The position numbers and the translations under genes are program-made. Shown here piece after piece: positions 3 to 13,042 of a stretch of 23,003 bases of DNA. Origin of the DNA: a virus. The DNA lies in IMG/VR virus record IMGVR_UViG_3300046535_000809, positions 1 through 23,003 of that record, one strand, 5' to 3'. The notes beneath the pieces were generated by a model. The model made no database searches. It was not told the origin of the DNA and saw only the letters and a list, made by a program, of their open reading frames with translations. Numbering within the stretch: position 1 is the stretch's first letter; each line of letters opens with the position of its first letter.

Positions 3-554
3 TTAGTAGCTGTCGGTTTCATCGTTCTGACCCTCTCCAAGTAATCGCTTGGCGACACGATCCGGCGTATCGATCTCCCACTGCACCAAATCCCCGATGG
101 TGATGTGACGGCCTGTGCGCGCCGGATTCGGATGCGGCACCTGTTGTCCCTTGGTGAACATCGCCAATGCTGTTTCCGCAGTTTGCACGGCAGTGACTAA
201 CTGTGCCTTCTGTGAAATCAACTCAGGCGTCCACGGCTGATACGCGGTTTCATACGTGGAGAGCTTGACGATCTTGCCCGCGTGATCTTTCGCCAACACA
301 GCCTGCCGCCGACTGGCTTTGTGAATGCCAATGAGCGTAAAGTTCTGGCCGCTCTCACCGCCTACGTCGATGGCGACTTTGCGGCGCTTGGGTTTGTTCT
401 TGAAGGTTTGATCGAGGAAGGTTCGAAGTGCTGATAGTGTATTACGTCGCACCTCCTGTTTACGATAGATGGCCATGAACATGCCGTCATCGTCGAGCAT
501 GATGTCGTAACGCTTCAGACCATCGGGTGTGGTGTATTCGCTGTGCTTGATCAT
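3..554 (-). CDS. hypothetical protein, 183 aa, C-terminal RLL motif
   Basis: I do not recognise this protein. It is complete, ending in TAA just inside the left window edge, and it is the last visible gene of a leftward operon. Its ATG overlaps the stop of the upstream 551..787 gene (ATGA), and GAGGAG-like purines precede it. The N-terminal half looks like a compact beta-rich domain (DGLKRYDIMLDDDGMFMAIY) followed by a basic stretch with KNKPKRRK near residues 53-60. The middle is helical (ISQKAQLVTAVQTAETALAMF). Near the C-terminus, residues 166-175 read RVAKRLLGEG, the motif shared by seven other small proteins in this window. No membrane segment or signal peptide is seen. Function unknown; a phage accessory or early protein is an inference from context. 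Confidence 0.8.
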   Translation of the reverse strand: MIKHSEYTTPDGLKRYDIMLDDDGMFMAIYRKQEVRRNTLSALRTFLDQTFKNKPKRRKVAIDVGGESGQNFTLIGIHKASRRQAVLAKDHAGKIVKLSTYETAYQPWTPELISQKAQLVTAVQTAETALAMFTKGQQVPHPNPARTGRHITIGDLVQWEIDTPDRVAKRLLGEGQNDETDSY

Positions 555-787
555 CGGACAACTCTCCTCTTGTTGGAATAGCGCGCAGTGTAATTGTAGC
601 CAGAGTGATAATGATGGATATGCTGCGGTTGAAGTAACTTCCCCTTCAGCCCGACTGGCTCGTTCAGGAGAATTTTTGCTATCCGCTTAACGGCGTTGCT
701 GGTCATACCGCTTGATGACTCTGCAATATCGTCGCCGTCATCGCGCCGCTCGATATCATCGGGTTCGTCGATCGAGAAACGCATCAT
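551..787 (-). CDS. hypothetical protein, 78 aa, acidic N-terminus, RLL-like motif
   Basis: Small unknown protein. A longer open frame reaches position 823, but I place the start at 787, where GGAGGACG precedes ATGATG and the codons overlap the TGA of the upstream 784..936 gene. The protein begins MMRFSIDEPDDIERRDDG, a strongly acidic stretch. Residues 35-43 are RIAKILLNE, a variant of the recurring (V/I)AxRLLxE motif, followed by a His/Tyr-rich tail (HIHHYHSGYNY) and a basic C-terminus (NKRRVVR). The acidic head and basic tail could suit a small binding protein, but no family is recognised. It is translationally coupled to both neighbours through four-base overlaps. Confidence 0.7.
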   Translation of the reverse strand: MMRFSIDEPDDIERRDDGDDIAESSSGMTSNAVKRIAKILLNEPVGLKGKLLQPQHIHHYHSGYNYTARYSNKRRVVR

Positions 788-936
788 CGTCCTCCACCCA
801 AGTTGACACGTTTCGTAGACCAAAGAAATGGCACGGTCAACGGACGTTTGACTTGACCGAGCAACCGATTCGCCACGGTTTGAGCATGCCGACGTGCGGC
901 AAGGCGTTTGCGGCGTTTACGTTCGCGCCGGTTCAT
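784..936 (-). CDS. small basic hypothetical protein, 50 aa
   Basis: A short frame that fills the space between two coupled genes. Its ATG at 936 is preceded by TTAGGAGTGAAG, a good ribosome binding site, and its first base is shared with the stop of the upstream gene. Its TGA at 784-786 overlaps the ATG of the next gene, so start and stop both fit the operon pattern. The N-terminus is extremely basic (MNRRERKRRKRLAARRHAQ), which would allow nucleic-acid binding. Residues 21-28 are VANRLLGQ, the recurring motif. The DNA encoding this motif shares 17 identical bases with the neighbouring 936..1085 gene. No family recognised. Confidence 0.7.
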   Translation of the reverse strand: MNRRERKRRKRLAARRHAQTVANRLLGQVKRPLTVPFLWSTKRVNLGGGR

Positions 937-1033
937 CACTTCACTCCTAACTGCAAGTAGCGTTTACACCACATGCAGGCACACCCTTGTGTATAGTCAG
1001 TAAATGCGTAGCGATTACCGAGCAACCGATTCG
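856..1033. repeat. 17-base direct repeat in two adjacent small genes
   Basis: The sequence ACCGAGCAACCGATTCG occurs at 856-872 and again at 1017-1033. On the minus strand both copies encode the NRLLG part of the recurring motif, in the 784..936 and 936..1085 genes. The identity does not extend far on either side. This fits a local duplication or recombination between motif-encoding segments; other motif copies in the window use different codons. Confidence 0.8.
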
Positions 1034-1085
1034 TGATCATCATCAGGCGAAAGCGTTTCCACTTGCGAATCTTGCGCCCGCTCAT
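936..1085 (-). CDS. small basic, Cys-containing hypothetical protein, 49 aa
   Basis: Unknown small protein. The frame is open from 1118, but the preferred start is 1085: GAGAGG lies upstream and the ATG overlaps the TGA of the 1082..1342 gene. It begins MSGRKIRKWKRFRLMM, a basic amphipathic stretch. Residues 16-24 are MITNRLLGN, the recurring motif. The C-terminal half carries three cysteines in GCACMWCKRY (CxCxxC), a spacing compatible with metal binding or disulfides but too short to assign. It ends in TGA that shares a base with the next start. Function unknown. Confidence 0.7.
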   Translation of the reverse strand: MSGRKIRKWKRFRLMMITNRLLGNRYAFTDYTQGCACMWCKRYLQLGVK

Positions 1086-1342
1086 CGCGTCATCCTCTCT
1101 GCGATACGCTCGCTCCACTGGAGAATGCGGTAAAGGTCCGTGGCAACATGCACCTCATCTAGATCCTCCCCCGGGTGTCTCTCCATGAACACCTGTGCGG
1201 CCTCCAAGATCGGGAAGTAGCGCGTGGCCGCTGAGAAGGTGCCCTTTGCCCGCTCGATGGTATAGAGATCGATCAACTCCAACACATCTGACTGCTTGAT
1301 GTATTTCAACTGCAAATCGATTGCGAAGTTGCTCATGGTCAT
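1082..1342 (-). CDS. hypothetical protein, 86 aa, first gene of leftward operon
   Basis: Unknown, predicted mostly helical protein beginning MTMSNFAIDLQLKYIKQSDV. It contains acidic helices (SDVLELIDLYTIERAKG, EDLDEVHVATDLYRILQW) and ends WSERIAERMTR, which only loosely recalls the RLL motif of its neighbours. Two start codons (ATGACC ATG) lie close together, and no strong ribosome binding site precedes them. A possible 11-codon upstream frame (1339..1374) with AAGGGA in front ends in TGA overlapping this ATG, so translation may be coupled. It is the first sizeable gene of the leftward group; a promoter should lie in 1343-1800. Confidence 0.7.
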   Translation of the reverse strand: MTMSNFAIDLQLKYIKQSDVLELIDLYTIERAKGTFSAATRYFPILEAAQVFMERHPGEDLDEVHVATDLYRILQWSERIAERMTR

Positions 1343-1370
1343 CTACTCTGCAATTCGTAAGCCAACTGTT

Positions 1371-1398
1371 CCATATGACATCCCTTACCATATGACAG
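1371..1398. repeat. tandem CCATATGACA repeat
   Basis: The 10-mer CCATATGACA occurs at 1371-1380 and 1389-1398, 18 bases apart from start to start, about 30-55 bases upstream of the leftward operon. Each copy contains the palindrome CATATG. Its position suits paired binding sites for a regulator of the leftward genes, but this is inference. Confidence 0.5.
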
Positions 1399-1486
1399 CC
1401 CGTTGAAACCCGCAGGGCCATGCAAGGCCCATGCCATGTGGGCAGGCGCGGAGCGACGAGCGTAGCGCCGGTGATCCGAATTGTGC

Positions 1487-1504
1487 TTGTGAAAACTTTC
1501 ACAA
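1487..1504. promoter_or_regulatory. perfect 8+8 palindrome, operator-like
   Basis: TTGTGAAAACTTTCACAA is an inverted repeat of TTGTGAAA and TTTCACAA around a two-base centre. Outer arms ATCCG (1475-1479) and CGGAT (1506-1510) form a second, imperfect symmetry. The AT-rich core, the two-fold symmetry and the location between divergent operons suit a dimeric repressor or activator site. No such regulator gene is visible in the window. Confidence 0.5.
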
Positions 1505-1549
1505 TCGGATAGGCGAGGACTTGGCATGCTTCTTGATCAGACACGATCC

Positions 1550-1572
1550 GTGCCAGTGTCACTTTTTGGCAC
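1550..1572. promoter_or_regulatory. inverted repeat GTGCCA/TGGCAC
   Basis: GTGCCA (1550-1555) and TGGCAC (1567-1572) form a 6-base stem around an 11-base loop that contains a run of T. It lies 46 bases right of the stronger palindrome at 1487-1504. It could be a weak terminator or a binding site; evidence is limited to the symmetry. Confidence 0.3.
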
Positions 1573-1689
1573 ATGTGCCGATCGCACAAAGTAGGACACG
1601 GCTTTTCGCGGTTTTGGAACACTCACAGATTCGTAAGCGCAAAACACGCCACAATCACGCGGTATCTTACGGCATGCGCCATGCAGTTG

Positions 1690-1719
1690 TTGTCAGTGGC
1701 CACCGGGCCACTTTGACAA
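1690..1719. promoter_or_regulatory. long inverted repeat with TTGTCA/TGACAA arms
   Basis: TTGTCA then GTGGCC (1690-1701), a 4-base loop ACCG, then GGCCAC (1706-1711), an extra TT, and TGACAA (1714-1719). The inner stem is perfect and the whole pairs with only a two-base bulge, so it could act as a DNA operator or an RNA hairpin. The right arm includes a TTGACA hexamer (1713-1718), but no good -10 element follows at the usual distance. Confidence 0.45.
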
Positions 1720-2001
1720 CCGAAGCGGATGGCGGGCAAGCCGATTACGCCACTCCCAAATAGCCAGACGGACGGGGATCCTGATAGCCACTAGCGCGAA
1801 CCATCCTGAGTGCATGGAGAACCAACTGGAAGCGGTTCAGATACTGACGAACCGGCAAGCCGTGTAGACGCTCACCAGTTGACCAACCCGACAACGCATG
1901 ATGACGGACCAATAGCGCGGCAATTCACAAGATCACCGAAGGCAAGCATTTCCGTTTGGCACAACCATTCGACCAACCAACAACAACCCGAAGGAGGAGA
2001 C

Positions 2002-3030
2002 ATGTCGATCACGATGACGCCTACTCAGCTTTTCGATTTTCTTGTGGAGATGATCACGGCCAAACAACCGACACTGATTCAGGGTGCACCCGGTATCGGC
2101 AAGTCGGATGTTGTTGGGCAGGCTGCCGATTCGATCGGCGCGGATTTGATCCTCTCGCATCCGGCTGTTGAGGATCCGACCGATACATCAGGCTTTCCGT
2201 GCTTGATCAACGGCGCAATGGCGTTTGCTCCCGCTCCCGCGATGCTTCGCGCGATGAACGCCACGAAACCTACCGTTTGGTTTCTGGATGATCTTGGACA
2301 AGCCAGTCCGGCCGTGCAGGCTGCAAAGATGCAGCTTCTACTTGCGCGCGAGATACAGGGACACAAGATCAGTGATCAGGTAACGTTCGTCGCGGCCACC
2401 AATCGGCGCACCGATCGCGCTGGTGTCTCCGGCATTTTGGAACCCGTCAAGTCGCGGTTCTGTTCGATCGTGGAGCTTGCACCCGACCTTGATAGTTGGT
2501 GCAATTGGGCGATCGATCGCAACGTTCACCCACTGTTGATCGCGTTCCTGCGGTTCAAACCGGAATTGCTCTGCAACTTCACGGCGACGAACGATCTGGT
2601 GAATTCGCCCGTCCCGCGCACGTGGAATCATGTCAACAAGCTACTTGCCATGAAGTTGTCGCCTTCGCTACTGTCGATCGCGATCGCCGGTGCAGTGGGC
2701 GAAGGAGCAGCTACGGAATTCATGGCGTTCATGAAGCTGTATGAGCAGCTTCCCAACATCGACCAGATCTTGATCGATCCCAAGTCGGTGGCGATTCCGA
2801 CCAATCCCGCCGTGCTCTATTCGCTGGCTGGCGCGTTAGCCATGAAAGCGAATTCGACCACGTTCAACGCGATCACGTCCTACGTGAATCGGCTTGTCGC
2901 GGCCGATCACGCTGAATTCGGCGTGCTCTGCGTTCGTGATTGTCTGCGGCGTGATAACTCGCTGCGTCACTCGCAAGCGTTCGTCAAAATGGCCAGTGGC
3001 GAGATCGGCAAGCTGATCTCCGGAGTCTAG
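2002..3030 (+). CDS. AAA+ ATPase, MoxR/CobS-like
   Basis: A 342-residue AAA+ ATPase, probably a chaperone-type motor acting with the VWA protein encoded downstream, as in MoxR-VWA and CobS-CobT pairs. Walker A is GAPGIGKS at residues 28-35; Walker B is VWFLDDLGQA around 92-101, with D96 and D97 as the metal and catalytic acidic pair; sensor 1 is VAATNRRTDRAGV with N134; an arginine-finger-like LEPVKSRF follows at 146-153. The rest is a helical lid. The open frame extends upstream to 1810, but the start at 2002 is chosen because AAGGAGGAG lies just before it and the upstream residues are low-complexity. It leads a rightward operon. Its phage substrate is unknown; the ATPase assignment itself is firm. 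Confidence 0.93.
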   Translation: MSITMTPTQLFDFLVEMITAKQPTLIQGAPGIGKSDVVGQAADSIGADLILSHPAVEDPTDTSGFPCLINGAMAFAPAPAMLRAMNATKPTVWFLDDLGQASPAVQAAKMQLLLAREIQGHKISDQVTFVAATNRRTDRAGVSGILEPVKSRFCSIVELAPDLDSWCNWAIDRNVHPLLIAFLRFKPELLCNFTATNDLVNSPVPRTWNHVNKLLAMKLSPSLLSIAIAGAVGEGAATEFMAFMKLYEQLPNIDQILIDPKSVAIPTNPAVLYSLAGALAMKANSTTFNAITSYVNRLVAADHAEFGVLCVRDCLRRDNSLRHSQAFVKMASGEIGKLISGV

Positions 3031-3034
3031 CAAC

Positions 3035-3244
3035 ATGGCGATCAACGTCGATCGCTTGCGGAAGGATCTGCGGCTTGCCGTCGATGCTGAACGAACGGCA
3101 TTTGGACGTGCAAGCCGATGGCAACGTATCTACATGAAACGCTTTGAACGTCGATACGCACTACAACATCGGTTGTTTGCGATCGAAGCTGAGGCGGATC
3201 GTGTCGCAACCCGTTTACTCGGAAAGGATCACAACAATGGCTGA
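3035..3244 (+). CDS. small basic helical protein, 69 aa, RLL motif
   Basis: Unknown protein, highly charged and predicted helical throughout (VDRLRKDLRLAVDAERTA, YMKRFERRYALQHRLFAIEA). Residues 56-64 are RVATRLLGK, matching the motif found in the flanking leftward small proteins, here at the C-terminus. GGAG at the end of the previous gene can serve as its ribosome binding site. Its last eight bases overlap the start of the DUF3150-like gene, so it is embedded in the ATPase/VWA cassette and probably co-translated with it. A link between the motif proteins and this cassette is an inference from this placement. Confidence 0.75.
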   Translation: MAINVDRLRKDLRLAVDAERTAFGRASRWQRIYMKRFERRYALQHRLFAIEAEADRVATRLLGKDHNNG

Positions 3245-4106
3245 CACAAACGTCCACACCCGCGCGTTACTCGTTTGGCTTCAGATTCGATCATGGTCGG
3301 CAAGGAAGTATGACCGTGCGGTATCGGAGAAAACGAACCGCGATCACGGCGCATCAAGTGGATCCTCGCGCACCAACAAAGCGCTGTTGAGCAAGCACGA
3401 TCGTTCATACTCGGCGCTGATGACGTTGATCGGTTCGCTCCGAACGTGGCACTACGGCGAAACGCTGGCATGGTCGGATGCTGGCGACCGACTGCTGACG
3501 ACCGACAACTTCATGCATTACGCCGATACGTTGCGCGTCAAGATCAACGAGATCAACAACGCGATCGATGCGTTCGCTTGCGACTATCCGACATTGCGGT
3601 TGGAAGCATCGCAGCGTCTAGGCGGTATGTATAACTCGGCAGACTATCCGGACGCTGCCGACATTCGGAACCGCTTCGGCGTGACAGTCGCATACAAGCC
3701 GGTTCCTGCCGAGGGCGATATCCGCGTGGATCTCGCAGCCGATCAAGTCGAGGCGATCAAAGCATCGATCGCAGCGTCCAACAGCGCCAGCGTGGAACAT
3801 GCGATGCACGATGCATGGTCAAGACTTCATGACGTTGTGCAGTCGGCGGCGATCAAGCTCGCGGATCCTTCCGCCATTTTCCGCGATTCGTTGATCAACA
3901 ACGTGTCGGAGATCTGCGGCGTGCTTGAACGGCTGAACGTCACCGGCGATGCGGATCTTGATGCGATGCGCGTGGAAGCGCTGAACAAGATCGCGCACCT
4001 GAACCCGGACACGATCCGGGGTTCGAAGCTGTTGCGAGAACAGACGGCCAACGACGCTGCCGATATCCTCGCAAAGATGTCTCAATTCTTTCAGCCTGCC
4101 GCATGA
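3237..4106 (+). CDS. DUF3150-like protein
   Basis: A 289-residue soluble, largely helical protein. The central stretch ACDYPTLRLEASQRLGGMY followed by DYPDAADIRNRFGVTVAYKPVP and DIRVDL resembles, from memory, the conserved core of DUF3150, a family often encoded in phages between a CobS-like ATPase and a CobT-like VWA protein, exactly the arrangement here. The start at 3237 follows GGAAAGGATCACAACA and overlaps the previous gene by eight bases; an upstream ATG at 3144 in the same frame is less likely because it lies deep inside that gene. The remainder is helices rich in Ala, Asp and Ile. Its biochemical role is unknown; it may be an adaptor between the ATPase and the VWA protein. Confidence 0.7.
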   Translation: MADTNVHTRALLVWLQIRSWSARKYDRAVSEKTNRDHGASSGSSRTNKALLSKHDRSYSALMTLIGSLRTWHYGETLAWSDAGDRLLTTDNFMHYADTLRVKINEINNAIDAFACDYPTLRLEASQRLGGMYNSADYPDAADIRNRFGVTVAYKPVPAEGDIRVDLAADQVEAIKASIAASNSASVEHAMHDAWSRLHDVVQSAAIKLADPSAIFRDSLINNVSEICGVLERLNVTGDADLDAMRVEALNKIAHLNPDTIRGSKLLREQTANDAADILAKMSQFFQPAA

Positions 4107-4119
4107 AGGAGGAACGAAC

Positions 4120-5223
4120 ATGGCTATGAGCGAAACACTCAAAAGGATCCAGCGTGCGCGCACGATCCTTTTGATTGATCAGCCGTTTTTCGGCGTGCTT
4201 GCACTCCAGCTGGAGATCATCGAGAGCACGATCAACGATACGGCTTGGACGGATGGAAAGCGGCTTGGTTTCAATCCGGCGTTTGTTGCCAAGCTATCGC
4301 AGGATGAATTGATCGGAGTAGTGGCGCATGAAGTAATGCATCCTGCCTGCGGTCATCCGTGGCGCGAAGGAGGGCGAGAGCATAAGCGCTGGAACGCTGC
4401 CGCAGACTACGCGATCAACCCGATTATCAAGGGTGCAGGGTTGAAGCTCCCGGCTGGATGCTTGGATGATCCGCAATATCACGGCAAGTCGGCCGAATGG
4501 ATCTACGATCGCTTGCCACCATCACAGGAGTCTGATGGCTGCGGCATTGGAGAAACGAAACCCGGTGACGGTGAACCGGGCGAAGGCGATACACCAGTGA
4601 CGGAGGCCGACTGGCAACAACTCGCCAAGCAAGCCATGCAGGCCGCCAAGATTCAAGGCAAGCTCCCGGCGAACATGGCACGCGAGTTAGAACGTGCCAC
4701 TAAGCCGATCGTCGATTGGCGCACACTGCTGCGGAAATATCTACAGCAGATCACAACGGCCGACTACACGTGGACAAGGCCCAACAAGCGTTACCTCTCG
4801 CACGGGATCATCCTGCCAAGCCTGCGGTCACTGGCATGCGGCAAAATCGCCATTGCGGTTGATACGTCTGGCAGTATCGATCAAGTAACACTCGCGCAAT
4901 TCGCTGGCGAGATGCAGAGCATCATTGACGATATGTCGCCTTCGTCCACCGAAGTCGTCTACTGTGACGCTGCGGTTCACCGTGTCGATACGTTCGAACG
5001 TGGCGATGTTCTGAAGTTGAATGCGGTTGGTGGCGGAGGCACGAATTTCTCGCCAGTGTTTGATCACTTCGCAACGGCTGACACTGAACCGCCCGTTGTG
5101 CTGATCTACTTCACCGACATGTATGGGAGCTTTCCCGCATCGTCCGATTATCCGGTCATTTGGGCAAGCACTAGCGGCATCGATACCGCGCCGTTTGGTG
5201 ACGTGGTTCCACTCGCACAGTAA
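4120..5223 (+). CDS. metallopeptidase-like plus VWA domain protein (DUF2201/CobT-like)
   Basis: A 367-residue two-domain protein. The N-terminal domain carries HEVMH (H70, E71, H74), the HExxH zinc-binding and catalytic signature, followed by the family-typical WNAAADYAIN at 91-100. A Gly/Pro/Glu-rich linker (about 138-162) leads to a VWA domain: beta strand KIAIAVDTSGS with the MIDAS DxSxS at 248-252, the MIDAS threonine in GGGGTNF (T308), and FTDMYG with D333. All key MIDAS residues seem intact, so metal-dependent partner binding is likely. GAAGGAGGAACGAAC gives a strong ribosome binding site. VWA partners of MoxR/CobS-type ATPases are well known, so it probably works with the 2002..3030 ATPase. 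Whether the HExxH domain is an active protease is not shown. Confidence 0.88.
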   Translation: MAMSETLKRIQRARTILLIDQPFFGVLALQLEIIESTINDTAWTDGKRLGFNPAFVAKLSQDELIGVVAHEVMHPACGHPWREGGREHKRWNAAADYAINPIIKGAGLKLPAGCLDDPQYHGKSAEWIYDRLPPSQESDGCGIGETKPGDGEPGEGDTPVTEADWQQLAKQAMQAAKIQGKLPANMARELERATKPIVDWRTLLRKYLQQITTADYTWTRPNKRYLSHGIILPSLRSLACGKIAIAVDTSGSIDQVTLAQFAGEMQSIIDDMSPSSTEVVYCDAAVHRVDTFERGDVLKLNAVGGGGTNFSPVFDHFATADTEPPVVLIYFTDMYGSFPASSDYPVIWASTSGIDTAPFGDVVPLAQ

Positions 5224-5275
5224 ACAATCATCGTGGTCGGCTGGACTGCAACAGCCGATCACATTGGAGAGCATC

Positions 5276-5524
5276 ATGGTGTTCGAAGTGAATACGACCG
5301 ATGAACTATTCGCCCTCTTGTGGGAGTGTCGCGCGGTTATCGAGGACATGACAGATTCGCGCGATATTGATGATCAGAACGACAACGCTCTGTTGCTCGA
5401 CAAATTGCGCGCGGTCACTGACGCCCGCGTTCAGATGGCGCAAGCATTGAAACTCCGTGTCACTGGCGATGCATCGCGCGATACGCTGGTGAGCGAGCGG
5501 ATCAACCTACGCGCCGCCGACTGA
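5276..5524 (+). CDS. hypothetical protein, 82 aa
   Basis: Unknown small acidic, helical protein beginning MVFEVNTTDELFALLWECR. The same frame is open from 5123, but TTGGAGAGCATC before the ATG at 5276 decides the start. It contains a helix (DNALLLDKLRAVTDARVQMAQALKL) and no recognisable catalytic motif; the RLL motif of other small proteins is absent. It is the last gene of the rightward ATPase/VWA group, about 50 bases after it, and faces the leftward operon that ends at 5881. Confidence 0.7.
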   Translation: MVFEVNTTDELFALLWECRAVIEDMTDSRDIDDQNDNALLLDKLRAVTDARVQMAQALKLRVTGDASRDTLVSERINLRAAD

Positions 5525-5572
5525 TCTCTTACACCAACATGGGCGATCGTGGCCACCACTGCGATCGTCCAT

Positions 5573-5620
5573 CATTCGATCCGCCAGTTAGTTAGCACTG
5601 CTAAGCATTCGATCCGCCAG
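5573..5620. repeat. 15-base direct repeat CATTCGATCCGCCAG
   Basis: CATTCGATCCGCCAG occurs at 5573-5587 and 5606-5620, 33 bases apart from start to start. Between them lies the hairpin TTAGC-ACT-GCTAA (5592-5604). It resembles a pair of protein-binding sites; function unknown. Confidence 0.6.
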
Positions 5621-5730
5621 CTGTGAGAACCGCGCACCGCCTTGCAACCTTCCACGCATCCAACAAACCAACAAGCAACGTATGACATCGCGGCGTGCAT
5701 GAGGCGCGTTACGCATGATCACGTAACGAC

Positions 5731-5810
5731 GCTTTACACTGTAGAGTGCTTTGACATCTGGTGTTATTTTTATAACATCAAAGTGCTCTATGACATAAAG
5801 CGCTTTGACA
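5731..5810. promoter_or_regulatory. AT-rich palindromic island with repeated GCTTTGACA
   Basis: GCTTTGACA occurs at 5748-5756 and 5802-5810, with degenerate copies GCTTTACA (5731-5738) and GCTCTATGACA (5785-5795). Between them is the hairpin TGTTAT-TTTT-ATAACA (5762-5777), bracketed by CTTTGA (5749-5754) and TCAAAG (5778-5783). TTGACA at 5751-5756 with TAACAT at 5773-5778 (16-base spacing) is a plausible sigma70-type promoter pointing right, antisense to the leftward operon. Iteron-like binding or an origin is an alternative reading. Confidence 0.4.
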
Positions 5811-5880
5811 GCTTGGGGTGGGGGACCCCCTCAGCGGACGCTCGCGGCCGGGGTGCGAAGCGTGCCACCGCAAAAATTTT

Positions 5881-6072
5881 TTACGGCTCAAACACGCTGC
5901 TAAGCATAGGGGCTGTGTTGATGGCGCTGACGAGGCCGTCTTCGAATACCTCTTTCATGATCTGGTCGAGCGCGATGTGGAAATGGACGGGTAGAACGCG
6001 CAGAAGGTCTTCATCCAGTAGGCGTTGCGAGACGCGGAGGGTCTGGATGGTCTTGGCGTGAATGGATGTCAT
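5881..6072 (-). CDS. hypothetical protein, 63 aa, RLL motif
   Basis: Unknown small protein, last gene of the second leftward operon. The start at 6072 overlaps the stop of the upstream gene (ATGA); an in-frame ATG at 6120 would overlap that gene by about 50 bases and is less likely. It starts MTSIHAKTIQTLRVSQRLL: residues 13-22 are RVSQRLLDED, the recurring motif near the N-terminus. The rest is a helix with alternating hydrophobic residues (ALDQIMKEVFEDGLVSAI). It ends in TAA within the AAAAATTTTT palindrome. No family recognised. Confidence 0.68.
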   Translation of the reverse strand: MTSIHAKTIQTLRVSQRLLDEDLLRVLPVHFHIALDQIMKEVFEDGLVSAINTAPMLSSVFEP

Positions 6073-6314
6073 GGCTTGTCCCACTGTCGGCCGCGATAAT
6101 AGTCGGCGGTGATGCCCCACATCTTGCGCTCGTTGTCCGTGTCGAAGAGATCGGGAGGGGTGTCCGGTATTTCATTGAGCAAGCGCGCGGCAACGTGTTG
6201 GGCGTGTTCGGCTTCGGTGATGGGGCCATACTTCCGACCATATATCACATTCCATTCCCTCTCCCACCTGTCGGGGTTGGTGACGACGATCGGGCCGTCC
6301 TTATACTTCGGCAT
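6069..6314 (-). CDS. hypothetical protein, 81 aa, RLL motif
   Basis: Unknown small protein beginning MPKYKDGPIVVTNPDRWERE, with a Trp/Tyr-rich N-terminal segment and the motif HVAARLLNE at residues 40-48, followed by IPDTPPDLFD. The frame is open from 6350; the start at 6314 gives a smaller overlap (14 bases) with the upstream gene and a more natural N-terminus, with ACGAG upstream. The combination RLLNE, proline, then an acidic or hydrophobic stretch recurs in the 6301..6636 protein, so these two may share a slightly longer module. Function unknown. Confidence 0.68.
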   Translation of the reverse strand: MPKYKDGPIVVTNPDRWEREWNVIYGRKYGPITEAEHAQHVAARLLNEIPDTPPDLFDTDNERKMWGITADYYRGRQWDKP

Positions 6315-6636
6315 CGGTAACTCGTGCGTCCGCAGCAAGTAAGGCCGCATACGCCTTGGCGGTTTTGTGGGACATGATCATGCGCATGATGGGTTGTTTG
6401 GCGACAATGGATTCCGTTGCCCGCTTCAGCATATCGACCGTAAGTGCTGGCCCTTCATTGAGTAAGCGGCAGGCGACTGCTTCAGCGACATCCTCGGGTG
6501 TAAGGCGGGCGTTGTGGAGGTTGCCATTGACATCAATGCCGATGACATGGGTGTCAGGAGTGTGTGCGTTGATGAAGATCGGAATGCCGTTGAAGATCAT
6601 AGACTTAGCCGACCAATCGGATGCGGAGACGTTCAT
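6301..6636 (-). CDS. hypothetical protein, 111 aa, RLL motif
   Basis: Unknown protein. I take the ATG at 6636, which overlaps the TGA of the upstream gene, over the in-frame ATG at 6678 that encodes a Gly/Ala-rich extension inside that gene. The first half looks like a small beta domain (MIFNGIPIFINAHTPDTHVI, GIDVNGNLHNARL). Residues 53-62 are AVACRLLNEG, the recurring motif, followed by PALTVDMLKRATES and a helical, Ala-rich C-terminus. It has no visible catalytic signature. Confidence 0.7.
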   Translation of the reverse strand: MNVSASDWSAKSMIFNGIPIFINAHTPDTHVIGIDVNGNLHNARLTPEDVAEAVACRLLNEGPALTVDMLKRATESIVAKQPIMRMIMSHKTAKAYAALLAADARVTDAEV

Positions 6637-6863
6637 GGGCGCTCGGCCTGCGGCCCTCGCGCCACAACCGCCTCCCACGGGGACAGGGATTGGGGAACCG
6701 GCGTGGCCGTGACGGTTTCGCTCACGACCATACCGTTATGACGATCGTGTTCGTGGGCGGCGATGCTCGTAGCGATCTGGAGTGCGTGGTGCTTATCTTT
6801 GGCGTCGAACACCACACGGATGTCGCGCACGATGGTTTCGCGGATGAGGATGGCGAATTTCAT
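6633..6863 (-). CDS. hypothetical protein, 76 aa, small alpha/beta domain
   Basis: Unknown protein. The ATG at 6863 follows GAAGGAGAAG, the clearest ribosome binding site in this operon. MKFAILIRETIVRDIRVVFD reads as two beta strands, then AKDKHHALQIATSIAAHEH as a helix and MVVSETVTATPV as a third strand; small phage proteins with this strand-strand-helix pattern are common, but no function is known to me. The RLL motif is absent. It overlaps its neighbours at both ends by one to four bases. Confidence 0.72.
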   Translation of the reverse strand: MKFAILIRETIVRDIRVVFDAKDKHHALQIATSIAAHEHDRHNGMVVSETVTATPVPQSLSPWEAVVARGPQAERP

Positions 6864-7078
6864 CAGTATAACTTCTCCTTCTTGCCAACCATCGCCAGCG
6901 ATTTCCTCAACCGCTTCAACACCTTCGGCGTGTTGGCGTGCTCGCGGGAATGCTGGCTGCGCGGCTTCTCCACGAGGTTCATCGGGTCGTTGTTGTCCTT
7001 GTTCTCGTCGGCATGATGCCGGATGTTACCCGGAGCGACCGGCTTCTTCATGTGTGCGTCGGATTTGCGATCTCTCAT
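6863..7078 (-). CDS. small basic hypothetical protein, 71 aa
   Basis: Unknown, very basic and hydrophilic protein (MRDRKSDAHMKKPVAPGN at the start; TPKVLKRLRKSLAMVGKKEKLY at the end), probably partly disordered. The ATG at 7078 overlaps the stop of the upstream gene (ATGA) and its own TGA shares a base with the next ATG. The charge would allow nucleic-acid binding. An alternative start at an internal Met (residue 10) is possible. The RLL motif is not present, although VLKRLRKSL is loosely similar. Confidence 0.65.
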   Translation of the reverse strand: MRDRKSDAHMKKPVAPGNIRHHADENKDNNDPMNLVEKPRSQHSREHANTPKVLKRLRKSLAMVGKKEKLY

Positions 7079-7365
7079 ACCTTCACTTCCTTCTTCCCAT
7101 CGTTGATCAACACGCGGGCCTTCGGGGGTTCCGGATCTTCGGGCACGCGCTTAACTTCTTTGTAGAGAATGTATTTGGGGAAGTTCCCCGCGACGGCTAC
7201 TTCAGGAATCATGCCACCCGCACCATCGGAGACATTCTGGAACTTCATGGGGATTTGGTCAGTGGCCTTGAAGATCATATGGCCGATGATGCGGCGCATT
7301 CCGGCGTTTCGACCGCTCAAGATGTGGACGACGATACGCTTCTCTTTGTCCTGTAACTCTGTCAT
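7075..7365 (-). CDS. hypothetical protein, 96 aa, first gene of leftward operon
   Basis: Unknown protein, probably beta-rich: KRIVVHILSGRNAGMRRIIG, MIFKATDQIPMKFQNV and ARVLINDGKKEVKV. ACTGAGGCCAC before the ATG at 7365 is an acceptable ribosome binding site. It heads the six-gene leftward operon and starts only 58 bases from the GTG of the rightward terminase block, so the two operons diverge from a very short promoter region. No recognisable catalytic motif. Confidence 0.72.
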   Translation of the reverse strand: MTELQDKEKRIVVHILSGRNAGMRRIIGHMIFKATDQIPMKFQNVSDGAGGMIPEVAVAGNFPKYILYKEVKRVPEDPEPPKARVLINDGKKEVKV

Positions 7366-7375
7366 GTGGCCTCAG

Positions 7376-7412
7376 TTGTAGCGGTGCAAGTATTGTGCCA
7401 TACTTACGGGCA
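7376..7412 (+). promoter_or_regulatory. phage promoter candidate, copy A, before terminase block
   Basis: TTGTAG (7376-7381) as a weak -35, 17-base spacing, then an extended -10 TGC-CATACT (7396-7404) with CGGGCA at 7407-7412. From 7386 to 7412 it matches copy B at 13050-13076 in 23 of 27 positions, with the core GTGCCATACT identical. Both copies point right and sit in front of structural operons, which supports a real shared promoter or transcription-factor site. Confidence 0.65.
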
Positions 7413-7423
7413 AGGGGGATTCT

Positions 7424-8074
7424 GTGGCTGTGTTTGGCAAAAAGCGTTGGCCGCGTCCAAATGGACGCCCTAAGCGCCTTGGTGCTGACCCGCCTGTTAG
7501 CGTGCTGTCCCCTTCTCCAGCACCCGCTGACGGCACGTCACAGGATCCCCCTTCTACGACCGCCAGAAATGTAAGACGAAACGGTAAGTCGCACGTCGCC
7601 AAGGGGAAGCCGAGTTGGTATCTGCCACCCGACAGCAAGGTTCGGGCCGTCGCCATGACGATCATGGCCATGCGGGCGGCGGGACGGGATGATGACGACA
7701 TTGCGAAGGAGCTAAGCATCGGGCGTGCCAGCATTTCGAGCTACGTGTATCGGGCGGCGAAGAACAACTGGATCACCGCTGATACGCCCGCCGATCGCGT
7801 CAAGGTCGAATTGCTTCACAAAACGGTTGATCGGATTAAGGAAGGGCTGGACGATTCAACCCGCCACAACACGAGCGGCATGATGGTGCGGACGGCAGTG
7901 GCGATGGATCTGGCGAAGGGCACGATCTTCAAGGAGTTCGAAGCCGGGGATGCAAAGAGCGTGCCAAATACGATTGTCGCAGTTCAGGTGGTCATGCCCG
8001 ATGGTGCGCCGCAGATCATGCGCGAGGATACCGCAGGCGGGCGACCCAACTACATCGAAGGGGACGTGAAGTGA
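7424..8074 (+). CDS. putative small terminase subunit (TerS-like, HTH)
   Basis: A 216-residue protein two small genes upstream of the large terminase. The start is GTG at 7424 after CAAGGGGG. The first 60 residues are basic and Pro/Ser/Arg-rich, probably flexible. Residues about 72-115 form a helix-turn-helix region (AMRAAGRDDDDIAKELSIG then RASISSYVYRAAKNNWI), as in TerS proteins and other DNA-binding factors. A helical middle part (VKVELLHKTVDRIKEGLDD) could support oligomerisation. In phages the TerS binds packaging sites on DNA and activates the TerL motor. The position and HTH support this role, but a transcription factor is an alternative. Confidence 0.65.
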   Translation: MAVFGKKRWPRPNGRPKRLGADPPVSVLSPSPAPADGTSQDPPSTTARNVRRNGKSHVAKGKPSWYLPPDSKVRAVAMTIMAMRAAGRDDDDIAKELSIGRASISSYVYRAAKNNWITADTPADRVKVELLHKTVDRIKEGLDDSTRHNTSGMMVRTAVAMDLAKGTIFKEFEAGDAKSVPNTIVAVQVVMPDGAPQIMREDTAGGRPNYIEGDVK

Positions 8075-8253
8075 TCGAGGATGTCGATGCGCGGCCAAGC
8101 TGCCTGCCCATGCGGGTGATCGACAACAAGAAGACGCTGGTGTTCCGGATGGACGTGCTTGGCGAAGGCACGATGGAAATGGTCGTCGAGAGCGAGAAGT
8201 TTACAGGCCGGTTGATCTACAGAGGAATGCGTATATGCCTTACAACGAAGTGA
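8071..8253 (+). CDS. hypothetical protein, 60 aa
   Basis: Unknown small protein with a GTG start overlapping the stop of the TerS-like gene (GTGA). It looks like a small beta-sheet domain: MRVIDNKKTLVFRMDVLGEG, TMEMVVESEKFTGRLIYRGM. It overlaps the following gene by 19 bases. The existence of the gene is supported by coupling and by filling the space between two terminase-block genes, but it has no family that I recognise. Confidence 0.6.
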   Translation: MIEDVDARPSCLPMRVIDNKKTLVFRMDVLGEGTMEMVVESEKFTGRLIYRGMRICLTTK

Positions 8254-8435
8254 TGCCCAAGTTTGGTAAGGGGAACCTGCACAGCGGCAGCAAGGGCGGG
8301 CCGGTGGTCAAGAACCCAAAGCAGGCCGTTGCGATCATGTATAGCGAGAAGGGCGAGGCCAAGAAGGGCAAGAAGGAATACCAGCCCAAGGGCAAGGCCA
8401 GTCTGGCTGGAATCAAGAACGCGGTGAATGGCTAA
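8235..8435 (+). CDS. small Lys/Gly-rich protein, DUF6496-like
   Basis: A 66-residue, highly basic protein: VMPKFGKGNLHSGSKGGPVV then KNPKQAVAIMYSEKGEAKKGKK. From memory this matches the pattern of DUF6496 proteins (HSGSKxGPxVxxxKQAVAIAxSE), short proteins common in phages and some bacteria with no known function. GAGGAATGCGTAT precedes the ATG. It ends with a second helix (ASLAGIKNAV). It overlaps the terminase gene by eight bases. The small protein at 20301..20483 is of a similar Lys/Ala-rich type. Confidence 0.7.
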   Translation: MPYNEVMPKFGKGNLHSGSKGGPVVKNPKQAVAIMYSEKGEAKKGKKEYQPKGKASLAGIKNAVNG

Positions 8436-10062
8436 CGTCCGACTACCTCCGGGGTGTGGCGACAATCTCCACGAGCCATATCTCTACAATCCCTACCTGC
8501 ATGACCCGACGAAGGGCTTCTTCGCCGCGTTGCGGATGCGGGTGTGTCTGAAGTGCAAGCAGTCGGGGTATCGCAATGCAAACGGCTCTTTTGACTGCAC
8601 TCGGTGTGGCACTCATCATACAGACGCTGACTCTGCCCCACGGGCCTACGATAACTTTCTACTGTTATCAGGCAGGCAAGGCGGTAAGACGTTGGGCGGC
8701 GCGCATGCGGTCAGGGAAGAACTGACGATCCCCAACAGTCATTGGTGGGTGTTGGGTCCGACCTACAAGATTCTATGGGACAGCACCATTCCCACGCTGG
8801 TCAAGCTGCTCAATCCGGACTGGATCAAGCGGTGGGACAGTGATCGTGAAGAGATCGATTTCGTCAATGGAAGCAAAGTATCTTTTCGTTCATTGGAAGA
8901 CCCTGAGCGCGCTCGTGGTCCGCAGGGGCTTAAGGGCGGATGGTTTGACGAGGCGGCACAATGTCCTGAACGCGGTTTTCAGGTTTTTAAGCCGACGTTG
9001 CTGAAGTCATCGGGCATCATCATCGCTACCACCACGGTCCTTGGGTTCGATTGGACCTACGACGAGATTGAGAAGCAGGCGGCAGTTTACAAGAACCCCG
9101 GCTATTGGTATGCGCGATGGTGGACAGAAGAGAACCCGTTGTTCCGCTCCAGCCCGCAGATCATGGAGAAGCTGGCGCGGGCGAAGGCGCAGGCCGAGGC
9201 AAACGGTGGGCAGGCATTGGCCTTCTACGAGCAGGAGTATCGAGGAGAGAGGAAGAATGCGTCTGGACTTATCTACGATTACTCGCTGATCGAGAAGCAG
9301 ACGCTCTTGACGGACGATGAGATCAAGAAGTTGTTACCGGAGTGGCCCGCGATTCATCCTGACCGCACGGTTCTTGTTGGCTTGGATAGTGGTGTTGACC
9401 ATCCTTTTGGCGCGGTTCTTATTGTGGTTACGCCCAAGGGTCTGATCGTCGTTGATGAATATTTGGAGCGGCGGAAGGCGATCAGTCAGCATCTCGATCC
9501 GATCGCCACGCAGTTCAAAGTTCGTGGACGCGGCGACGTGAAGTGGGCGGCGAACAAGAACGAGGCGAACCTGCGGCTGGAGTTTGGTCTACGTGGGGTG
9601 GGCGTGATGCCCGCTGAAAATAAGCACCAGATCGGCATTCAGCGCGTGCAAAGTTGGCTGTATGCGAACCAGCTGTATTTCGCCTACACCGTGCCGCGCA
9701 CGCTGGAGCAGATGCGCGCGTATCGCAATGCCGATAACACGAAGCCTTCGACCGGCGAGAAGCGACCACTGGAGAACGTCTTCAAGTTTAAGGACGAACT
9801 GCCCGATGCCATTCGTTACGCGATTATGGCGTGGCCCGAATTGCCCGAAGACATCGATCGCGGAAAGAGCGAGGAGGATCGTGCGCGCGAGAAGAAGCGG
9901 TGGGATGCGTTGAGTGAGCGGGAACAGCAGGAGATCTTGCGGCTGCGTGAGTATGCGAAGGAGCAGGAGCACAATCCGGACGAACTACCCGCCGATGATG
10001 CCGCCTATCCGATGGGCAATTTCTTTGGCGATCCCAATGAGACGCAATCGTGGTTGTCCTGA
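8428..10062 (+). CDS. terL: terminase large subunit with N-terminal zinc ribbon
   Basis: The 544-residue DNA-packaging motor and nuclease. Residues 40-60 hold a zinc ribbon CxxC...CxxC (C40, C43, C57, C60) ahead of the ATPase, which is unusual for TerL. ATPase: Walker A SGRQGGKT at 81-88, Walker B GGWFDEAA with D174/E175, and the coupling region IIIATTTVLGF. C-terminal RNase H-like nuclease: D320 in VLVGLDSG, the acidic pair D343/E344 in VVDEYLERR, and the Asp in ELPDAIRYA near 457-460. All key acidic residues seem present, so ATPase and nuclease are likely active. TerL docks on the portal encoded downstream. The start overlaps the previous gene by eight bases with only a weak GGTGA in front. 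Confidence 0.95.
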   Translation: MANVRLPPGCGDNLHEPYLYNPYLHDPTKGFFAALRMRVCLKCKQSGYRNANGSFDCTRCGTHHTDADSAPRAYDNFLLLSGRQGGKTLGGAHAVREELTIPNSHWWVLGPTYKILWDSTIPTLVKLLNPDWIKRWDSDREEIDFVNGSKVSFRSLEDPERARGPQGLKGGWFDEAAQCPERGFQVFKPTLLKSSGIIIATTTVLGFDWTYDEIEKQAAVYKNPGYWYARWWTEENPLFRSSPQIMEKLARAKAQAEANGGQALAFYEQEYRGERKNASGLIYDYSLIEKQTLLTDDEIKKLLPEWPAIHPDRTVLVGLDSGVDHPFGAVLIVVTPKGLIVVDEYLERRKAISQHLDPIATQFKVRGRGDVKWAANKNEANLRLEFGLRGVGVMPAENKHQIGIQRVQSWLYANQLYFAYTVPRTLEQMRAYRNADNTKPSTGEKRPLENVFKFKDELPDAIRYAIMAWPELPEDIDRGKSEEDRAREKKRWDALSEREQQEILRLREYAKEQEHNPDELPADDAAYPMGNFFGDPNETQSWLS

Positions 10063-10157
10063 AGTGTGAATGGGCGCAATGTCCCGGGTTTGCGGGAAAG
10101 GTTGCGGTAACACAAACGTTACCATGCGACTGTGGAAGGGCACCGAAGAAGGGGTGA
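10050..10157 (+). CDS. candidate 35-aa four-cysteine miniprotein
   Basis: A short frame from GTG at 10050 (inside the terL end, another frame) to TGA at 10155-10157, just before the next start. It reads MVVLKCEWAQC, then PGFAGKVAVTQTLPCDCGRAPKKG: C6, C11, C26 and C28, with turn residues CG and PG, like a small zinc-binding knuckle. It fills the otherwise empty gap between terL and the 10161 gene. Weaknesses: a GTG start, only a weak GAGA ribosome binding site, and short length. The gap DNA can also form hairpins (10082-10097 and 10106-10123), which may be a by-product of coding. Confidence 0.45.
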   Translation: MVVLKCEWAQCPGFAGKVAVTQTLPCDCGRAPKKG

Positions 10158-10160
10158 GTC

Positions 10161-10517
10161 ATGTGGATCAGTAGTGAAGCGTTTGAACGGTTGTTGAAAG
10201 ACGCGGGGAAGGCGGAAGGACGCGCGCAGGCGTTGGAGATTCGTGCGGCAGCGCAGGAAGCCTCGATGGATTGGATGAAGGCGCGGTTGACGCAGTTGGA
10301 GTATGAACGGGCGCAGTTGATCAAGAACTACATGGGCGTGACGATTCCGGTGGCAGAGTTTCAGAAGCCGGAAGAGACGTTCGAACGCAGCAGTGAGTCC
10401 TTGCTCGGCGCGGCCGTCAGCTACGAGGACGTGGGCGACGAAGAAGCGAAGCGGCAAGGGCTGGATTGGGACGGACAGGGCCGTTTGATGCGGCACGGTA
10501 AATTGGTTCAGGAGTAG
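10161..10517 (+). CDS. hypothetical coiled-coil protein between terminase and portal
   Basis: A 118-residue protein beginning MWISSEAFERLLKDAGKAEG. Residues about 5-58 form a long charged helix with heptad-like hydrophobics (ALEIRAAAQEASMDWMKARL, LEYERAQLIKNY), suggesting a coiled coil and oligomerisation. The C-terminal half is acidic and probably less ordered (YEDVGDEEAKRQGLDWDGQG). GGGGTGAG precedes the ATG. Lying between terL and portal it may be a packaging or head accessory protein; I do not recognise a family. The RLLKDAG near the N-terminus only weakly recalls the RLL motif of the non-structural genes. Confidence 0.75.
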   Translation: MWISSEAFERLLKDAGKAEGRAQALEIRAAAQEASMDWMKARLTQLEYERAQLIKNYMGVTIPVAEFQKPEETFERSSESLLGAAVSYEDVGDEEAKRQGLDWDGQGRLMRHGKLVQE

Positions 10518-10519
10518 TC

Positions 10520-13042
10520 ATGTCACTCACGACGCCGAAAGATACAGCAAATGTGGACCCGTCACCCAAGAACGACGGCACGTCGAAAGAGAATCCGCAG
10601 ACCGGTGGGTTTGACGACGATTCGTTGATCGGGTTGTGGGAAGTGATGAAGCACGAGTGTTACGACTCGCGCTGGATCTTCGAACGCCAGTGGCAGCGCA
10701 ATATCTGGTATGTGCTCGGGCGGCAGTGGATCGAGTATCAGAGCAAGTATGGCGGGTGGCGCGACAAGCGCATGGCCGCATGGATCCCACGGCCCGTGAC
10801 GAACAAGTGCAAGGAAGCCGTGCAGGCCATTCGTGCGATGTTCACCAGTATCAATCTGACGGTGAATGTCAGGCCGAATGGCACGGACCCGGCCAATGTG
10901 TCGGCTGCGGCGACTGCCGATAGCATGGCTCCGCTACTGCATGAAGTGCATCTCATGGATCAGGCGATGAGCGAGTTCGACTTCTGGTTGCTCGTGGCCG
11001 GGAATGCCTTCCTGCACAGCTACGTGGACTACGATGTCAAGCACGGCACCATCACCGACAACGTGATGCAGTGCGCGCAGTGCGGAGCGCAGACACCAGA
11101 GAGCAAGTTGGTGGGCGCGCCGCCGACCTGTCCGGAATGTGGCGCATCGGACCTTCAGCCTGCGGTGGATGAGACGGGCGCACCGGCCAGCAACACGCTG
11201 ACCAAGGGTATGCCTGCCACGATGGTGCTGTCGCCGCTGGAGATTGCATTTCCGAATAGCTACACACGCTTTGACGACGTGCCATACGTGGTGCGGGCGC
11301 GTTGGAGAACCAAGCGGTATTACGAGAGTCAGCCCGATCCGGAAATGCAGCGGCTGGCGCAGACGATCACGTGGACGAAGAGTCCGCAGGATCACAGCAT
11401 GGCCCTCTTCACCAGCTTGGTGCAGACCAATGATTTGGGCATCACGCCGATCTACTGGTCGGAAGGCAGCGGACGTGGCGGTCAGAATGATGAAGGCGTC
11501 ACCGAATATGAAGTGTGGATGAAGCCGACCGCACAATATCCGGATGGCCTTGTGTTTCGACTGGTGGATGATTCGACCAGCCCGAAGATCGTGCATATGG
11601 AGCAGTCGGAGAGCATCCCCGGGCCGCTACCCTACACCGATGCCGATGGCAAACCGATCTTCACCTTCGCGCATGCATCGTTCGAACACGTCGGCGGTCG
11701 AATCTTGGGCAGCGGTGCCCTCGACCAGATCATTCAGAAGCAGGATCAGCTGAACCAGCTGGACAGCCAGATCATGCTCTGCTTGCAGCGCATGGCCAAC
11801 CCGGTGTGGCTGGAGCCAAAGGGTGCCGAAATTCAGAAGCTGACCGGCATGCCCGGATTGGTGATCAAGTGGAACCCGCTCACGGTGGGTGGGCAGGCCA
11901 AGCCGGAGCGCATCGCGGGTGTGCCGATCGATGCCTCGTTGATGGCGCTTCGTGAGCAGTATCTGAAGGACATCGAGGAGTTGTCGGGAACGTTCGACAT
12001 CATGAAGGGGCAACGACCGGCAGGCGTCGAAGCCTTTTCGGCCATTCAAGCGCTGATCGAGCGCAGTCAGGCACGATTCAGCAGCGTCTTCAAGTCCCGC
12101 GGCAACGCCTACAAGAACTGGTTCAAGTTCGCCATCGAATTGGAGCGGTCATTCGGTCCCGATCAGCGCGTTCGTCAGACGATGACGCCCGCAAGGACGT
12201 GGACGTATGAAATCTTCAAGAACGCGCAGCTTCAGGGCAGCGTGAATGTGGTGATCGAGGACGGTAGCCAGCAGCCGAAGACGAGCTTGGGCATGCGGGC
12301 GGCCGTTGAGCACGCCAGTTCGCTCAAACTGCTCAATATGGCTGACCCGGAGGTGCAATATGAGGCATTGAAGCTGTTTGGGCTGACAAATATGGTGCCG
12401 TCGATGGACATTGCCGTCCAATCGGCCCTCCAGAAGCAGCAGGCGTTCGAAGACTGGATGAACAACCCACAAGCGCAGCAGATGTTCATGCAGACCTTGC
12501 AGCAGCAGCAGACTCAGTTCCAACAGCAGTTGGAAATGGCTCAGTCGAAGTTCAAAGTGGATGCCGCGCATGCCCACGTGGACGAAACCGCGCCAATTCC
12601 GCAGTTCCAGCCGCCCCAAATGCCCAATATGCTGGATTCTACGCCACTCAAGTGGATGCCGTGGTGGAATGCGCCCATTCATCTCAAGGAATTCATCAAA
12701 TGGACGAACGATGACCACATCAAGGCCATTCTGGCAAAGAACCAGTTGGCGTTCGCCCTGTTGAGCGCGCATATGCAAGAACTGAACCAGAATATGCCGC
12801 AAGCGCCGTCCGAACCGCCGAAGGTCAACTTCTCCTTCGCTGAAGACGCCATGCAGGATCCGGAAGTGCGGAGTTACTTCGAAAAGACGACCGGAACGCC
12901 CCCAAGCGCCCCACCGCCCAAACCGGCTGCAAAACCGGACGGGAAGGGTGTTGCCGGGGCGGCTCGGGCCATGAAGAACTCGAATGACAACAGCGCTCCA
13001 GCGGGCAACAAGCCGCAGAAGCCGCAAGGACAGGGGGCTTGA
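10520..13042 (+). CDS. portal protein (P22-like size) with zinc-ribbon insertion
   Basis: An 840-residue portal, the dodecameric ring at the capsid vertex through which DNA enters and leaves. Portal-type features: N-terminal LWEVMKHECYDSRWIFERQW and YVLGRQWIEY, a long mixed alpha/beta clip and wing, ILGSGALDQIIQKQDQLNQL, and the stem-crown helices EELSGTFDIMKGQRPAGVEA and AIQALIERSQARFSSVFKSR. Residues 185-207 contain a zinc ribbon (C185, C188, C204, C207), an unusual insertion. Residues about 650-690 are Gln-rich and helical (TLQQQQTQFQQQLEMAQSKF), like the barrel of long portals. The tail (about 800-840) is Pro/Lys/Gly-rich and probably disordered. It follows AGGAG two bases after the previous stop. 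The length suits podovirus portals. Confidence 0.93.
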   Translation: MSLTTPKDTANVDPSPKNDGTSKENPQTGGFDDDSLIGLWEVMKHECYDSRWIFERQWQRNIWYVLGRQWIEYQSKYGGWRDKRMAAWIPRPVTNKCKEAVQAIRAMFTSINLTVNVRPNGTDPANVSAAATADSMAPLLHEVHLMDQAMSEFDFWLLVAGNAFLHSYVDYDVKHGTITDNVMQCAQCGAQTPESKLVGAPPTCPECGASDLQPAVDETGAPASNTLTKGMPATMVLSPLEIAFPNSYTRFDDVPYVVRARWRTKRYYESQPDPEMQRLAQTITWTKSPQDHSMALFTSLVQTNDLGITPIYWSEGSGRGGQNDEGVTEYEVWMKPTAQYPDGLVFRLVDDSTSPKIVHMEQSESIPGPLPYTDADGKPIFTFAHASFEHVGGRILGSGALDQIIQKQDQLNQLDSQIMLCLQRMANPVWLEPKGAEIQKLTGMPGLVIKWNPLTVGGQAKPERIAGVPIDASLMALREQYLKDIEELSGTFDIMKGQRPAGVEAFSAIQALIERSQARFSSVFKSRGNAYKNWFKFAIELERSFGPDQRVRQTMTPARTWTYEIFKNAQLQGSVNVVIEDGSQQPKTSLGMRAAVEHASSLKLLNMADPEVQYEALKLFGLTNMVPSMDIAVQSALQKQQAFEDWMNNPQAQQMFMQTLQQQQTQFQQQLEMAQSKFKVDAAHAHVDETAPIPQFQPPQMPNMLDSTPLKWMPWWNAPIHLKEFIKWTNDDHIKAILAKNQLAFALLSAHMQELNQNMPQAPSEPPKVNFSFAEDAMQDPEVRSYFEKTTGTPPSAPPPKPAAKPDGKGVAGAARAMKNSNDNSAPAGNKPQKPQGQGA

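Follow-up and report, generated by a model that had tools for sequence, protein, structure and literature searches.

Tagged small genes in the window

The stretch of DNA analysed here, referred to as the window, comprises positions 1 to 23,003 of the virus record IMGVR_UViG_3300046535_000809 (G000), a tailed-phage fragment of 23 kb. Its small genes form tightly overlapping strings on the minus strand, at 3 to 1342 and 5881 to 7365. Eight small proteins were originally predicted to share a short peptide, which we call the tag. The proteins and the copies that they carry are as follows, in window coordinates.

g1 (183 aa, 3 to 554): VAKRLLG at 36 to 56, minus strand, C-terminal
g2 (78 aa, 551 to 787): IAKILLN at 662 to 682, minus strand, weak copy without Arg
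g3 (50 aa, 784 to 936): VANRLLG at 856 to 876, minus strand
g4 (49 aa, 936 to 1085): ITNRLLG at 1017 to 1037, minus strand
g9 (69 aa, 3035 to 3244): VATRLLG at 3203 to 3223, plus strand, C-terminal
g13 (63 aa, 5881 to 6072): VSQRLLD at 6013 to 6033, minus strand
g14 (81 aa, 6069 to 6314): VAARLLN at 6174 to 6194, minus strand
g15 (111 aa, 6301 to 6636): VACRLLN at 6457 to 6477, minus strand

All eight peptides are present in the ORFs for which they had been claimed, and seven fit [VI][AST]xRLL[GND]. The eighth, RIAKILLNE of g2, is a weak variant without Arg (DNA-model E 0.5) and, judged by its residues, only a probable member. The copy in g4, predicted as MITNRLLGN, is unusual at the first positions, yet it and the neighbouring copy in g3 (starting at 1017 and 856, respectively) are identical over 17 nt. 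The place of the tag within the protein varies, as had been proposed, with several copies C-terminal and most internal.

Most of the tagged minus-strand ORFs are chained by 4-nt overlaps of stop and start codons (551/554, 784/787, 1082/1085, 6069/6072 and 6633/6636), as in real operons. The plus-strand exception is g9, which lies, as the original prediction had it, inside an ATPase/VWA cassette, flanked by the AAA+ gene and the next gene of the cassette. The cassette (1810 to 5223) encodes an AAA_5 ATPase, a 288-aa protein of no assigned family and a DUF2201 metallopeptidase-VWA protein. It has relatives in other viral contigs (L020-L039) and is absent from the closest relatives of the window phage. 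One of these contigs, L020, has a short repeat (one strand reads VWVASSVRGYPFH) at least six times along the locus at 5551-12467, perhaps a repeated regulatory element. Searches of Pfam with the tagged small proteins gave no match above the curated cut-offs, and PADLOC gave none for two tagged small proteins and the AAA+/VWA cassette. A terminase search of genome contigs for the host likewise found no match.

Recurrence above chance

The nearest relative found of the window phage is G001 (IMGVR_UViG_3300043377_000006; 39,952 bp), whose terminase and capsid protein are 82% and 92% identical to those of the window phage. For counting, the strict pattern [VI][AST].RLL[GND] was searched in every start-to-stop ORF with 30 aa or more, and shuffling of residues within each ORF served as the null. 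The window holds seven strict matches against a shuffle mean of 0.055 (Poisson tail ~3e-13) and G001 six against 0.11 expected; seven other related phages and further contigs (~820,000 aa of ORFs) together gave one match against ~2.2 expected. Chance was thus rejected both by the shuffles and by the related phages used as controls, and the recurrence of the motif in unrelated proteins is far above it.

The two phages also recover each other's copies. A matrix built from the eight window sites and run on G001 ranked three of the six sites first, where chance would give none, and the remaining three within the top seven, while the matrix from the G001 sites, run on the window, returned six window sites as its top six. 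When all 6-of-7 patterns were enumerated blind in a reduced alphabet, VA.[RK]LLG came out as the most frequent in both (6 ORFs each). The shuffle maxima were 4 in the window and 4-6 in G001, and the G001 result, tying with its maximum, is support that would not be decisive alone. The same enumeration in other relatives produced no comparable lineage-specific tag, and scans with g1, g18 and g15/h109 for further carriers recovered G001 alone. Among the phages examined, the tag is limited to these two sister phages, where over twelve proteins, in other respects unrelated, bear the same ~VAxRLLG peptide.

Conservation of the peptide

Over 14 copies, pairwise identity is 64% at first, 80% at second and 28% at third codon positions, and the third positions agree no better than random. 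The difference between third and second positions shows a maintained peptide whose synonymous sites have reached saturation. What is conserved is the peptide rather than the DNA, in agreement with the original prediction. A DNA profile of the copies recovered the known copies only, all in frame (the next match had E 1.3), and found none in other frames or outside genes.

Several pairs are nevertheless alike in DNA. The g1 and g9 copies (20-64 and 3195-3239) match over 45 nt at 80% identity; the matching stretch reaches the next gene's start codon and hence includes a ribosome-binding region common to both. Besides the g3/g4 pair, the g14 and g15 copies show DNA similarity over 24 nt. Descent by DNA copying is visible in some tag pairs, so that the copies are not all independent. 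A rare-codon or TTA signal in the tag was also considered and dropped, because TTA is common in the remaining small early genes too, where it encodes 8 of 71 Leu.

Gain of the tag in conserved proteins

The genes of G001 that enter the comparison are the following, all on the minus strand.

h126: L002, 470-850, minus strand
h109: L002, 873-1202, minus strand
h70: L002, 1186-1398, minus strand
h114: L002, 1395-1739, minus strand
h127, a conserved early protein: L040, 16884-17267, minus strand
h110: L040, 17122-17454, minus strand
DNA polymerase A: L040, 17427-19814, minus strand
Dam methylase: L041, 2551-3114, minus strand

Three G001 proteins with orthologues elsewhere have the motif where the orthologues have nothing. 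The tail of h127 reads PAERVAKRLLGGHHGD, with an exact VAKRLLG; its seven orthologues stop at PGEK, PGGK or similar plus a few residues (PGEK-GDD-type). The DNA polymerase A (Pfam DNA_pol_A, E 9e-23) carries in its exonuclease domain an insert of 16-18 residues, SSVAARLLGQDDNGTHLGKP, which is missing in the ten relatives aligned, eight of them having zero residues at the site and two having two extra. The insert includes VAARLLGQDDNG and stands immediately before the KD...KPR region of the domain. In the model of this domain (mean pLDDT 86), the insert (residues 141-157) is the only stretch below 50. Like most docking motifs, it is therefore likely to be flexible and exposed. The exonuclease domain of another DNA polymerase (L051, from G008) has, at about column 206 of alignment A1, a lineage-specific insert that differs from this one and has its four cysteines arranged as CxxC pairs (CRMCDGQG...CVRCDGAG).

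The Dam methylase of G001 has a 16-residue insert with QRVAARLGHG, absent from four relatives. This copy is shortened and degenerate, with one Leu missing and a matrix score that alone is no better than chance, and on its own it would not be convincing. As read from these alignments, the gain in conserved proteins is the strongest new evidence for the tag. The carriers come from two genomes, one of them the partial 23-kb fragment, and independent gains are hard to count.

The motif is also kept in both likely orthologues of tagged small proteins that could be found. The likely counterpart of g13 is h70 (E 0.007), with VSQRLLG, and that of g15 is h109, with VADRLLG; for g1-g4, g9 and g14 there were none in the data examined. 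In a low-confidence model of h109 (pLDDT 61) the motif ends a helix, and in this protein it may be built into the fold instead of being a free tag. A fold search with the same model returned no match.

Capsid-like segments beside the packaging genes

Five small proteins adjoining the packaging genes (g13 and g15 of the window; h70, h109 and h126 of G001) contain segments of 30-50 residues that resemble the phage's own major capsid protein. The lowest of their capsid-profile scores is 9.3 bits and the highest 17.6 bits, whereas the best-scoring of 2300 shuffles reached 4.1. Three different parts of the capsid protein are represented (profile positions 12-45, 89-125 and 282-332). In the window the relevant features are these.

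5887 to 5976, minus strand: capsid-like segment of g13 (capsid positions 16-45), 9.3 bits against a shuffle best of 4.1 (n=2300)
6105 to 6152, minus strand: possible capsid-like segment of g14 (capsid positions 237-252), 0.6 bits, not significant and inside the shuffle range
6307 to 6447, minus strand: capsid-like segment of g15 (capsid positions 284-332), 9.6 bits; taken together with h109, profile-profile E 2.7e-7
14036 to 15382, plus strand: major capsid protein (PHROG 14242 major head protein, E 1.8e-23), with Arthrobacter phage capsid homologues

In a search of the ORFs of at least 40 aa from all loci, the best non-capsid matches were three G001 proteins (h70, h109 and h126), and when 45 phage protein families were compared with 132 early ORFs, the capsid protein alone gave clear matches. 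The segments follow each other along the operon in another order than in the capsid gene, so mere breakage of that gene does not account for them. The tag is upstream of the capsid-like segment in four of the five proteins, h126 being without it. The carriers were originally described as unrelated, and this has to be softened, because g13, g15 and perhaps g14 have capsid-like segments, each a different one. A permuted capsid segment in the N-terminal half of g15/h109 was considered and is unsupported (E 0.16). The same neighbourhood includes an HNH_3 endonuclease gene (6863 to 7078 of the window), which is conserved beside the packaging genes in most relatives.

A docking motif and its alternatives

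We lean, at somewhat better than even odds, towards the tag being a lineage-specific docking motif (V/I-A-x-R-L-L-G/N) for one shared putative partner. From the sequences we infer binding as its function, a single partner, a short, amphipathic, Gly/Asn-capped helix as the bound form, and what recruitment would achieve. Selection would keep the peptide, not the DNA. Many early proteins would have acquired the tag, some through local duplication and others through in-frame insertions or lengthened tails at sites that are exposed and flexible, namely loops, tails and the joints between segments. V/I and the two Leu would lie on one face of a short helix with the conserved Arg and a Gly/Asn/Asp cap, and the tagged replication and host-takeover proteins would bind one common partner, which could be a protein of the host or a phage protein encoded outside the window part; both fit. 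The core of the original prediction, a shared docking motif, is supported by the motif being kept at the peptide level, by its variable position and by its gain by the G001 polymerase and early protein. It need not always be a helix: the polymerase copy lies in a loop predicted to be disordered, and the h127 tail too is read as exposed or disordered, but the h109 copy ends a helix in the low-confidence model. The partners proposed originally (host polymerase, a phage assembly factor or the AAA+/VWA system) find no support, and the AAA+/VWA system is not the common partner, because G001 has the tag without the cassette.

Other explanations would do without a dedicated partner. The residues of the tag are common helix formers, and a product of chance or of general helix composition might be suspected; the composition-preserving shuffles and the related phages as controls leave this hardly credible. 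Alternatively, a mobile or duplicating DNA micro-element, similar to the Rickettsia palindromic elements, could have inserted in frame with the peptide as its passenger. In-frame insertion into unrelated, conserved genes is indeed observed, and some copies are alike in DNA (g1/g9, g3/g4). However, synonymous positions are random overall, out-of-frame or intergenic copies and palindromic or terminal repeats at the copies were not found, and the g1/g9 match is in part a common ribosome-binding region. A DNA element as the basis of the tag is therefore very unlikely.

Two further alternatives are the main rivals. In the first, a general chaperone or protease of the host, for example of the DnaK type, which recognizes hydrophobic LL beside a basic residue, would use the tag as its handle for folding or timed turnover. 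RLL with basic or polar flanks resembles the well-known DnaK-binding peptide NRLLLTG (a sequence resemblance only), and several copies are C-terminal. Most proteins, however, contain such sites by chance, neither the conserved V/I, A and G/N nor the exact insertion into a loop or tail would be needed, and the related phages, presumably facing similar chaperones, are without the motif; we regard this explanation as unlikely. That VAxRLLG helices bind each other and cluster the tagged proteins, with the capsid-like carriers tying the cluster to capsid assembly, would account for the same peptide on the polymerase and on small capsid-like proteins without any further partner. Seven residues are short for stable self-association, though, and the predicted structures of the polymerase domain and h109 give it no support, which makes it decidedly unlikely.

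The docking reading extends to a broader one that we put forward as speculative and rather improbable. In this modular address-tag system, polymerase, methylase and small early proteins would be marked for a common hub, and the subset of tagged mini-proteins with capsid segments would act as decoys for capsid-sensing defences, as assembly modulators or as adaptors bringing tagged cargo to the capsid. Because capsid-sensing defences such as CapRel exist (PMC9712102), the segments are of interest as possible decoys. They also raise the separate idea of capsid mimics encoded outside the capsid gene. If the tag is a docking motif, a single peptide would open access to many phage proteins without assigned function at once, the shared partner would place a dozen orphan genes in one pathway, and a phage could redirect a conserved enzyme, DNA polymerase for example, through the insertion of a short peptide.

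Comparison with known systems

In a search of the open-access literature we found no description of a phage-wide peptide tag of this kind. The beta-clamp binding motif is of the QLxLF type, and its Q-L-x-L-F/L core is in no tag copy. The thioredoxin-binding insertion of T7 DNA polymerase is a long stretch of the thumb, found in the polymerase alone. Like it, the insert of G001 is lineage-specific, belongs to a phage polymerase of family A and could bring in a host factor, but it is a much shorter loop of the exonuclease domain, with a peptide common to other proteins. The cargo-loading peptides of encapsulins and the capsid-targeting sequence of T4 sit at one terminus. They too are short peptides on unrelated cargo proteins, linked to an HK97-type shell; the phage tag differs in sequence and may stand at any position, most copies being internal.

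In phage nucleus import through PicA (PMC11087766), many phage proteins are sorted by a shared signal, but no linear motif was found there, and the tagged phages are of ~40-50 kb. Short linear motifs, as surveyed in prokaryotes (PMC3896991), are comparable in having fewer than 10 residues, unrelated carriers and a presumed binding function. The tag, in contrast, matched no known motif class or partner, and it recurs across many proteins encoded by one phage lineage itself. The Rickettsia palindromic elements are DNA repeats of ~150 bp (PMC10969869), whereas the phage tag has ~7 residues, random synonymous sites and no repeat or palindromic structure. In pattern they are nevertheless the closest parallel, with a conserved peptide, apparently inserted, in frame within many unrelated proteins of one lineage (PMC10969869).
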